A stretch of DNA of 64,000 bases from Robertkochia marina (lineage in GTDB: Bacteria > Bacteroidota > Bacteroidia > Flavobacteriales > Flavobacteriaceae): the NCBI RefSeq assembly GCF_004799345.1, contig NZ_SSMC01000001.1, positions 62,001-126,000 of the forward strand, given 5' to 3'. Position numbers and translations under genes: made by a program. Under the pieces are notes generated by a model. That model had not been told where the DNA came from. It did no database searches and worked only from the letters and a program-made list of their open reading frames with translations. Below, piece by piece: positions 49,990-53,213 of the stretch (positions within the stretch are counted from its first letter, which is position 1; each line of letters starts with the position of its first letter).

Positions 49990-50017
49990 AAAAGAGCCGT
50001 TCGCGGCTCTTTTTTTT
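49990..50017 (+). terminator. Terminator of groES-groEL
   Basis: AAAGAGCCG / CGGCTCTTT closes a TTCG tetraloop and runs into T residues, 25 bases after the groEL stop. The UUCG loop makes the hairpin very stable. Confidence 0.92.
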
Positions 50018-50066: not shown

Positions 50067-51038
50067 TTGACCTTAAGGCACTTATATATCTTATGCTTCT
50101 TCATTATTTTGAACAGTCATGCCTGTCCCCCGGCCATATGGACTGCCATGATAGGTTTTCCTGAAGCCGAAGTCCTCTCTGAAAATACTGTTCGTATTCC
50201 CTTTCAACTTGCCGACCATCTCATCATCCTTAAAGGCAGTATTAACGGCCAGCAAGGCAATCTGATCCTCGATACAGGCTCGAAGAACCTGGTGATCAAT
50301 AAAAATCACTTCAAACAACGCCACACTCAGATCAAACAAGGAGTTGGGTACAGTGTAACCGGAAGCCTGCAGTCTGTCTCTGCTCAACGCATAGAAAGTT
50401 TCAACTTTAATTCCTTTGAAATACCCTATAAACTTGGTGATCTCTTAGACCTCTCACATATCGAAAAAAACAAAAAACTAAAGATCCTTGGGGTGATGGG
50501 CAAAAGTGTGCTTTATGATTTCGAGATCTATATTGACTTCTATCTTAAACAGGTTACCCTGTTCAGAACTGACAATGTAGGAAACCGCATTGACGATCAC
50601 TTTTTTATAGACACCCCCACAGCAGAAATACCCTTTCTCGATCACGGACATTGCATTGTATTGAATACCACTCTTGGTACCACGCCCTTAAAAATGGCCC
50701 TTGATACCGGGGCTGAGATCAACTTTCTCGATTCTGATATTTCGGGGGAAGCCCTGAAGAAATTCAGAGGCATCAAACGTATTAAACTAAGAGGTATGGG
50801 CCATAAAAAAAGTGAAATGCTGGCAGGAAGACTCTATGATCTGCGACTGGATGACTCCTACCCCATCGGCGTAATGAGAACCATTCTTGCCGACCTGAGC
50901 GATATGAAAGAAGCTTACGGGACCCGGGTTGACGGTGTATTGGGATACGACTTCATTGCCATGAAAAGATTACTGATCAACTACAAAAAGAAACTCATTA
51001 CTTTTGTGAAGCTACCCTATAAGACCACGAGAACATGA
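50067..51038 (+). CDS. Two-lobed retropepsin-like aspartyl protease homolog, secreted
   Basis: The 323-residue product contains two active-site-type motifs, LILDTGSKNLVI (Asp69-Thr-Gly71) and MALDTGAEINFL (Asp213-Thr-Gly215). Each is followed by a hydrophobic-hydrophobic-Gly segment (LGVMGKSVLYDF near 141; GVLGYDFIAMKR near 290). Single-DTG retropepsin-like proteins dimerise; here one chain supplies both, as in pepsins. The start is TTG at 50067, which gives a signal peptide (LYILCFFIILNSHA); the first ATG, 27 codons later, would remove it. Its stop overlaps the next gene by 4 bases (ATGA). Substrate unknown. Confidence 0.8.
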   Translation: MTLRHLYILCFFIILNSHACPPAIWTAMIGFPEAEVLSENTVRIPFQLADHLIILKGSINGQQGNLILDTGSKNLVINKNHFKQRHTQIKQGVGYSVTGSLQSVSAQRIESFNFNSFEIPYKLGDLLDLSHIEKNKKLKILGVMGKSVLYDFEIYIDFYLKQVTLFRTDNVGNRIDDHFFIDTPTAEIPFLDHGHCIVLNTTLGTTPLKMALDTGAEINFLDSDISGEALKKFRGIKRIKLRGMGHKKSEMLAGRLYDLRLDDSYPIGVMRTILADLSDMKEAYGTRVDGVLGYDFIAMKRLLINYKKKLITFVKLPYKTTRT

Positions 51039-51985
51039 AGCTGACCCGGATTCTCATATTACTATTCTCTGTAAGCACCTTAGTTGGGACTGCCCAGCAA
51101 AAGGGCTATGAGATCGTTAACGATTCGGTGGTCTTTACCTTTAACCTCAAGGACTATAAAAAGTATACGAACGACCAAGACGGAAGGCGCATCTCAGCCG
51201 AAGACCTGGATGTTAACAATGTGTATTTGACAGGTGAATTTAATGACTGGTCCCGTCAGGGCTGGAAGATGAAAAGGGTTTCTGCAACCAAATTTCAACT
51301 GGTAAAAAGCATCAAAGAATTGAACGATCATATTGACTGGGAGTTCAAATACCTGGCAAACCAATCTTTCTGGGCAGAGCCCGACACCAATTTTGAGAAT
51401 ATCACCCTATCTGAACAGAGCGATTTCTGGAATAGCGTATACAACCTGAAACTTCACACCGTTATTCCCAACCCGAACGGCAATGCTACTTTCACCCTGG
51501 AAGGTCATGAAAATGCCACAGTAGTCATCTTGTCCGGCAGTTTCAACAAATGGAATGAAGAAGCCCTCAGGATGCATAAAAACGGGGATACCTGGCAGCT
51601 TACCCTGGATCTTCCTCCGGGTCAATACACCTATAAGTTTATCATTGATGGAGAGTGGCAGCATGATGTTAAAAATCCGATCAAGATCACGAATGAGTAC
51701 GGAGGTTTTAATTCTGTAAAAGAGATCACCAAGCCTACGTTCTTCGAACTTTACGATCACATACAGGCCCAAAGGGTATATGTTTCCGGAACCTTCAACA
51801 ACTGGAACCCTGAAGCCACACCTATGACCAAAAACGGAGATCACTGGGAAGCCTGCATAGACCTAACAGGCGGTAAGCATCAATACAAATTTATTGTAGA
51901 CGGCAATTGGATCATTGACCCTGACAATGAGATCAAAGAAATTGACCGATATGGCAACCTGAATTCGGTCATCATGGTTCAATGA
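51035..51985 (+). CDS. Secreted protein of three glycogen-binding-like (CBM48/E-set) modules, copy 1
   Basis: The 316-residue protein has a signal peptide (MKLTRILILLFSVSTLVGTAQ). Three modules follow, each with G-x-FN-x-W (near 71, 170 and 252), a W, then YKF-h-h-DG-x-W and a DP/N..GG/GNxNSV end. This is the pattern of AMPK-type glycogen-binding and isoamylase N-terminal domains. No catalytic domain is attached, so it may bind an alpha-glucan or have become a protein-interaction module. The ATGA overlap with the aspartyl-protease-like gene shows coupling. Confidence 0.85.
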   Translation: MKLTRILILLFSVSTLVGTAQQKGYEIVNDSVVFTFNLKDYKKYTNDQDGRRISAEDLDVNNVYLTGEFNDWSRQGWKMKRVSATKFQLVKSIKELNDHIDWEFKYLANQSFWAEPDTNFENITLSEQSDFWNSVYNLKLHTVIPNPNGNATFTLEGHENATVVILSGSFNKWNEEALRMHKNGDTWQLTLDLPPGQYTYKFIIDGEWQHDVKNPIKITNEYGGFNSVKEITKPTFFELYDHIQAQRVYVSGTFNNWNPEATPMTKNGDHWEACIDLTGGKHQYKFIVDGNWIIDPDNEIKEIDRYGNLNSVIMVQ

Positions 51986-52175
51986 GGAAATTGCCCCTTA
52001 TTTTGTCAGATAAAAACAAAGTTCAACGGAATTCCTGTTCAGCTGTTACTATAATTCGGTAAATTTCCTAATTACTCCCACCCCCCTTTCCTACAACGTC
52101 GCTCTCAACCTGCTAAACGCCATGGGCAGCCCGATTTTCCCTTCACAATGAACTCATTGCCGCCAAGAACAATGC

Positions 52176-53150
52176 ATGAAAACTAAAAGATGCATACCTT
52201 TTTTTTCGGCCCGGTTCATTATTCTGATCCTGATGATGACCCCATGCATTTCTTCGGCTCAAAAACTGGGTCACTACATAAAGGACGACCAGGTGATCTT
52301 TGTCTTTACCCCCGAGGATTACGAAACCTTTCAGAGACTTAAGAACGGGCGGTTTAAAAAACCTTCACGAGTGAAGGTGAAGGAAGTATGCATCTCAGGA
52401 AATTTTAATAACTGGAGCAAGGAGGGGGTCTACATGGAACCATTGGGAGATGAGGTTTTTGTATTATCGCAGCCCCTTTCCTTTTTTAAGGACGAGCTCA
52501 CCTGGGACTTTAAATATGTTGTGAATGGTAAATTCTGGGCAGAACCGGACCCCAGTTTTCGAGATCACGTGGTTGCCGGGACCCACCCTGACGGGAGTCC
52601 CAGCTATTTTCTTCAACTCAACACCTTCACGGCCGACCCCATGGGTAACACCCTGTTCAGATTACCCGGATTCATCGAAGCCAGTGAGGTTGTAGTTACC
52701 GGCAGCTTTAACAACTGGAACAACCATAACCTGGTCATGAATAAGACCCAGAACGGCTGGAACCTGGCGGTTGACCTCGAACCCGGATACCATCAATACA
52801 AATTCATTGTAGACGGCACCTATATGCCGGACCCTTTTAATGACAACCTTATTAAACACCAGGAACTGGATCTTGTCTCTGTACTTCGCGTAACCAGGGA
52901 AGTGCGCTTTTTTCTTCACACTCATAAATCTGCCGGTAAGGTGGCAGTAGTAGGCACTTTCAATAATTGGAAACCTGGCATTGATGTGATGCAACGAACC
53001 CCGGAAGGCTGGGAACTAAAAATAGAACTCACCAACGGCAAACACCATTACAAATTCGTTGTTGATGACATCTGGATCACCGACCCCGCAAACCCTACCC
53101 AGGAATACGATGTAAACGGAAACATCAACTCAGTGATCATTGTAAACTGA
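52176..53150 (+). CDS. Secreted protein of three glycogen-binding-like modules, copy 2
   Basis: The 324-residue paralog of the preceding gene has a signal peptide (RFIILILMMTPCISSAQ), the same opening (DDQVIFVFTPEDYETF against NDSVVFTFNLKDYKKY) and the same three FNNW...YKFIVDG modules. It is 190 bases downstream of copy 1, so it may have its own promoter. Module 1 in both copies is divergent (WDFKYVVNGKFWAEPDPSF), while modules 2 and 3 are closer to canonical glycogen-binding domains. Function unknown. Confidence 0.85.
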   Translation: MKTKRCIPFFSARFIILILMMTPCISSAQKLGHYIKDDQVIFVFTPEDYETFQRLKNGRFKKPSRVKVKEVCISGNFNNWSKEGVYMEPLGDEVFVLSQPLSFFKDELTWDFKYVVNGKFWAEPDPSFRDHVVAGTHPDGSPSYFLQLNTFTADPMGNTLFRLPGFIEASEVVVTGSFNNWNNHNLVMNKTQNGWNLAVDLEPGYHQYKFIVDGTYMPDPFNDNLIKHQELDLVSVLRVTREVRFFLHTHKSAGKVAVVGTFNNWKPGIDVMQRTPEGWELKIELTNGKHHYKFVVDDIWITDPANPTQEYDVNGNINSVIIVN

Positions 53151-53213
53151 CCCAAAAAAACTGTAAGGTATTTTGCGGAAGAAAGACTACCTTCACAATT
53201 TTTAATAAACGCT

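Follow-up and report, generated by a model that had tools for sequence, protein, structure and literature searches.

Within the 64,000-nucleotide stretch of the Robertkochia marina genome analysed here (the window), three forward-strand genes sit between groEL and a GAF-domain gene, the first for a two-lobed protein of the aspartic protease type and the other two for tandem arrays of CBM48 modules of the kind found in the AMPK beta subunit. The question that this locus raises is whether a protease and a putative glycogen-binding protein make up one functional unit and, if so, what such a unit would do. The tight pairing of the first two genes across genomes, described below, suggests a machine linking the binding of a sugar polymer to the cutting of protein. 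Such a pair would connect polysaccharide binding with proteolysis in the Bacteroidota, which are noted as a phylum for breaking down polysaccharides.

Results and discussion

The protease carries two homologous lobes in one chain

The three open reading frames of the first-pass annotation are present, including the overlap of the first two, and their coordinates are given with those of their parts in Table 1.

Table 1. Features of the protease/CBM48 locus, in window coordinates.
Feature	Coordinates	Strand	Basis
Gene 1, two-lobed retropepsin-like aspartic protease, predicted exported, 323 aa, TTG start	50067..51038	+	ORF; Pfam Asp_protease_2 above cut-off; R. sediminum ortholog
Lobe 1 DTG, D69-T70-G71	50271..50279	+	Sequence; DTG in 50/50 paired rows
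Lobe 2 DTG, D213-T214-G215	50703..50711	+	Sequence; Asp in 50/50 paired rows
ATGA 4-nt overlap, protease stop / CBM start	51035..51038	+	ORF positions; same in 29/35 family loci
Gene 2, three AMPK-beta/CBM48 modules without catalytic domain, predicted exported, 316 aa	51035..51985	+	Pfam AMPK1_CBM 140.7 bits, 3 stretches; model and fold match
CBM48 module 2 of gene 2 product	51506..51736	+	Pfam AMPK1_CBM genome match C1:113506-113736
CBM48 module 3 of gene 2 product	51764..51982	+	Pfam match; fold match to AMPK beta1 glycogen-binding domain
Gene 3, paralog, three CBM48 modules, 324 aa	52176..53150	+	ORF; Pfam; seen only in window and R. sediminum
CBM48 module 2 of paralog, binding-site residues partly lost	52677..52892	+	Pfam match; residue tally
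CBM48 module 3 of paralog, binding-site residues kept	52923..53153	+	Pfam match extends one codon beyond stop; residue tally

The Pfam profile Asp_protease_2 matches the gene 1 product with 38 bits (cut-off 24.3) in two stretches, placing it among the retropepsin-like proteins of clan AA, and each lobe has a D-T/S-G triplet, which is DTG in both. Comparison of the two lobe profiles by hhalign reveals that they are homologous (probability 99.2%, E 1.7e-19, 124 columns), so that the second DTG is part of a duplicated lobe and not a chance triplet; the presence of both DTG lobes in one chain, as first annotated, is thereby borne out. The ortholog in R. sediminum is 66% identical and likewise begins with TTG. 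The window protease has no PDZ match in Pfam (E up to 1), and the profile of pepsin family A1 (Asp, PF00026) is absent from the five Pfam matches (E up to 1). An AlphaFold model built from a two-row alignment reached a pLDDT of 32, too low to place the two DTG loops relative to each other. A PDB search with the single protease sequence returned three matches, namely two designed barrels and one ribosomal protein; the protease profile finds the solved chain 9iy9 ('Exported protein', E 2.5e-10) and Ddi1, and these serve only as a precedent.

The catalytic motifs were compared across 50 aligned rows of paired proteases, which represent 49 distinct genomes, L166 (genome G722) and L083 being counted as one R. 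sediminum locus. Lobe 1 reads DTG in every row. The catalytic Asp of lobe 2 is equally invariant, as is the Glu that follows the motif (E217), and its triplet varies: DTG in 17 rows, DSG in 7, DTA in 19, DSA in 6 and DFG in 1, with Gly and Ala each occupying the third position in 25. The one paired protease with DFG in lobe 2 lies at L148:5710-6660. Since half of the rows carry DTA or DSA, and one DFG, activity is not assured, and from these residues proteolysis by the paired proteases appears likely rather than certain. This natural DTG/DTA variation lends itself to testing how strictly the aspartic protease motif must be kept.

Two-lobed chains are not rare, and the paired kind falls in one group with two solo copies

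The expectation that two lobes in a single bacterial chain would be uncommon does not hold for these bacteria. The same genome encodes a second two-lobed protease, of 445 aa and with a PDZ domain (PDZ_6, 49.8 bits; L082:2166-3503), and Asp is present in both lobes of all six comparable generic two-lobed ORFs, this one included; a seventh, L111, was truncated. Of 12 generic loci tried, six yielded an ORF under a crude rule, and L111, one of these, was left out of the tree. In the phylum survey the protease profile found a match at E 1e-10 or better in 96 of 395 genomes, many of them in ORFs of ~390-520 aa and others in ORFs of single-lobe size (~145-175 aa).

In the tree, the generic ORFs split from the window's kind on a branch with 100/99 support, to which a long-branch warning applies, and the 15 paired proteases taken from the first survey form one group together with two solo copies (97/94, midpoint root). 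These solo proteases are the second copy of genome G067 and that of G116, a genome without the pair. With paired and solo proteases in one group, a single origin of the pairing followed by at least one loss is the simplest history; the solo members also indicate that the protease does not depend on having the array beside it, although its context is then a different one.

Solo relatives at L076:7690-12000 and L080:3657-7980 both adjoin a TonB-dependent receptor gene (Pfam), with a DUF4249 gene also beside them (Pfam on L080, sequence likeness on L076); their N-termini contain a Cys and have a lipoprotein-like look, with the strict lipobox pattern unmatched. A different two-lobed protease, ~410-420 aa long and extended by an additional N-terminal region, was seen at L202:798-3262, L203:2398-4841 and L205:900-3411. 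It adjoins a gene for an AraC-family regulator (HTH_18; its hydrophobic N-terminal part identified by reading) in three of the four loci read, which makes another conserved-looking linkage.

The array proteins are built mostly of CBM48 modules with conserved glucan-contact residues

Both array proteins of the window match AMPK1_CBM in three stretches, with 140.7 bits for the gene 2 product and 119.3 for the gene 3 product (cut-off 26.8), and Pfam finds no catalytic domain in either, which agrees with the initial description of two proteins made of three CBM48 modules each. The first module is diverged in both. The mean pLDDT of the AlphaFold model of the gene 2 product is 68.8, and most of modules 2 and 3 exceeds 70. 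Module 3 superimposes on the glycogen-binding domain of AMPK beta1 (1z0m) with Z 14.6 and an rmsd of 1.1 over 80 residues; the comparison of beta-sandwich folds concerns this module, modules 1 and 2 being barely covered.

The candidate glucan-contact residues were scored by correspondence to W100, K126, W133 and N150, which we take to be the contacts of AMPK beta1, in 17 arrays with 57 modules, a set that leaves out the 35 family loci used for the overlap analysis below. The site (W, K/R, W/Y, N) is present in 46 of the 57 modules and incomplete in 11, among them the first modules of three-module proteins, and the W/K/W/N set is complete in the last module of every one of the 17 arrays. Array relatives in families f7 and f18 have four modules behind a different N-terminal region, and those in f19 have two. 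Binding of alpha-glucan by the array is plausible from the contact residues together with the predicted fold of module 3.

Protease and array are paired across four families

A strong association of the two genes is evident from the genome surveys. In the family survey (299 genomes) the array is present in 38, and the protease lies directly upstream in all 38 by checked coordinates; this statement is limited to arrays that match the array query A2 at E 1e-25 or better. Protease matches at E 1e-30 or better occur in 42 of these genomes. Six family protease loci have no array: five are in ORFs of 413-437 aa with a different architecture (four as read, and G787:C9 as classed by its length of 413 aa), and one is in G638. 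Across the 299 genomes an array of this class was never found alone, and neither was an intact paired-type protease; the two extra arrays that do not touch a protease are accounted for by gene 3, the paralog present in the window and in G722. The G638 locus is a remnant (L204:2008-2565) in which a 185-aa open frame joins lobe 1 of the protease to the last ~31 residues of the array; it looks like the product of a single deletion spanning lobe 2 of the protease and most of the array.

The wider surveys extend this association. In the order survey (148 genomes), nine genomes besides the window's have a protease match at E 1e-18 or better, and in seven of them the array is next door. The two without it are G116 and G103, and of the two protease copies in G067 one is paired and the other solo. 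In the phylum survey (395 genomes), 9 of the 13 genomes with a protease at E 1e-30 or better have the pair, the window's genome included, and G403, G354, G306 and G180 do not. Taken over the three overlapping surveys, the pair is present in 49 distinct genomes: 39 from the window's family, 5 from f7, 3 from f18 and 2 from f19. Looser array searches matched at least 132 of the 395 phylum genomes (A2 query, E 1e-10) and 52 of the 148 order genomes (array protein 2 query, E 0.001), most of these rows being single stretches within ORFs that differ in size from the arrays; the order survey also lists ORFs, 447 to 2525 aa long, in which several short matches occur. A scan of genome contigs with a single sequence returned R. 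sediminum only.

Conservation of the trio order had been named as a check on the proposed system. Linkage is conserved for the protease and the first array, which stay together in all 38 array genomes of the family survey and in three more families, but not for the second array (gene 3), which the order, phylum and family surveys turned up in no genome besides the window's and that of R. sediminum; the trio as a conserved unit is rejected on this ground.

The junction between the two genes is also conserved. Among 35 family loci, a set that includes R. sediminum a second time as L166, the overlap is exactly 4 nt in 29, and the distance measured on longest ORFs lies within -35 to +5 nt in 34; the remaining locus has a gap of 44 nt. 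What surrounds the pair differs from genome to genome. Gene order at the R. sediminum locus L083, from the same genus, matches the window from 43252 to past 57727. The neighbours in G079, G350 and G638 are genes for a Sua5-like protein and for an alpha/beta hydrolase (Pfam for G350, sequence reading for the others), and f7 has a fatty-acid-hydroxylase gene (Pfam for L079). The pair travels or persists as a unit across differing neighbourhoods. An operon with groEL is thought unlikely, given the stem-loop and following T residues behind groEL at ~49990-50017 and the other neighbours outside Robertkochia; the stem-loop comes from sequence reading, and a scan scored it on the other strand only.

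In the loci read, a minority of whose neighbours were run against Pfam, no gene for alpha-glucan use was noticed immediately next to the pair. Elsewhere in the same genome, L009:1120-3219 encodes a lipoprotein-like protein of the alpha-amylase type (GH13) with a CBM48 module, beside another such enzyme, both named by sequence reading; the locus is probably a Sus-like alpha-glucan locus, and with such a protein in the genome, alpha-glucan from outside may be used.

Both proteins are probably exported to the periplasm

A crude hydrophobicity scan finds a hydrophobic N-terminal stretch in all three window proteins, in keeping with the signal peptides first assigned to them, and the same scan finds no lipobox pattern in any. 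Given such N-termini, protease and array are probably exported by the Sec pathway to the periplasm. Type IX export of the array was considered and rejected: neither window array protein matches the sorting domain (TIGR04183 / Por_Secre_tail), nor do the two other array proteins scanned, those of L074 and L145, and the same model does detect neighbours in L078 and L079. These neighbours, at L078:11775-13430 and L079:13481-15694 in two f7 genomes, each combine a CBM48 domain at the N-terminus with a type IX sorting domain, and are separated from the pair by 2.6 and 4.3 kb.

A proposed joint function and its alternatives

As the best explanation of these results we propose, tentatively and as something possible rather than probable, that protease and array are a two-gene envelope unit in which a protease and a glycogen-binding adaptor act together. 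Gene 1 would provide the Sec-exported, single-chain two-lobed protease, and gene 2, probably translationally coupled to it, a Sec-exported adaptor of tandem glycogen-binding modules of the AMPK-beta type. The two would act jointly, probably as a periplasmic complex; the adaptor would bind alpha-glucan, for example imported fragments of starch or glycogen or a glucan of the envelope, and, when glucan-bound, would position the protease on its protein substrates or switch it on them. In the window's genus the paralog would be a second adaptor. A sharper form of this proposal is glucan-gated proteolysis, in which the supply of alpha-glucan would determine how an exported AMPK-beta-like glycogen sensor switches or aims the single-chain aspartic protease dedicated to it; we consider it unlikely.

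Several other accounts of the pair can be weighed against the same data. The array could be the substrate of the protease, which would mature or shed it, the array itself being the working part. Fixed order, overlap and co-occurrence would suit an enzyme made with a dedicated substrate, as would a module number that varies between families (2 to 4) with a protease of roughly constant size; however, no conserved linker resembling a cleavage site and no conserved pro-region was noticed in an unsystematic look, and we regard this account as unlikely. Similarly improbable in our view is an E-set array that binds protein in place of glucan and serves as inhibitor, chaperone or substrate adaptor of the protease, since the glucan-contact residues that the last module retains in every array scored would be superfluous for binding protein alone. 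This is said in the knowledge that in three-module proteins the first module is without a full glucan site, and that the NCBIfam model of the type IX secretion plug gives weak matches to the modules (18.8 to 34.4 bits against a cut-off of 100), a likeness that allows similar E-set domains to have other roles.

The variable second lobe invites a different account, namely that the protease is catalytically weakened in many members and acts as a scaffold, the unit being a glucan sensor or binder without proteolysis. Replacement of Gly by Ala in half of the rows, and the single DFG, would fit such a protein, whereas pseudo-enzymes often lose a catalytic residue and here both Asp residues and the lobe 1 DTG are kept throughout; a scaffold is therefore, to our judgement, decidedly improbable. 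That the two are unrelated exported proteins brought together by chance or shared expression is the least credible account, and a very improbable one indeed: the patchy occurrence in the family survey (38/299) and the solo protease copies in f7 would fit it, but the intact genes are always together in that survey, usually overlapping, they decayed jointly in G638, and the pair has persisted over four families in different neighbourhoods.

Comparison with known systems

We found no published description of the protease/CBM-array pair in the open-access literature searched. The Asp_protease_2 plus PDZ proteins of Bacteroidota, such as L082, are likewise single chains with two lobes, an Asp in both and a hydrophobic N-terminus; the window protease differs from them in having no PDZ domain, in lying across the 100/99 branch and in being paired with a CBM array. 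PDB entry 9iy9 resembles it in that two stretches match the protease profile (at 164-281 and 301-417), and is longer, at 420 aa; a literature search for this code gave papers with unrelated titles only. The closest studied exported bacterial retropepsins found are the Rlo enzymes: Pseudomonas RloA (and RimB) are dimeric bacterial retropepsins, and the Rlo enzymes have signal peptides, one of them being operon-encoded, and are homodimers tied to ATP-grasp and inactive-transglutaminase partners (PMC12239564). They and the window protein are both retropepsin-like, but the window protein joins its two lobes in a single chain, and its partner is a CBM48 protein.

The array shares the fold of its module 3 and the contact residues with the AMPK beta glycogen-binding domain and CBM48; it differs in being tandem, probably exported and not joined to a kinase or glycoside hydrolase. 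The CBM48 domains of carbohydrate esterases (such as PDB 6rzn and 8bbp) also match in fold (Z 12.3, rmsd 1.7, 82 residues), and in contrast to those proteins the array has no esterase domain. Both parts belong to known families, and it is their tight pairing that stands out; it would give the two-lobed retropepsin-like proteins of Bacteroidota a defined partner setting.
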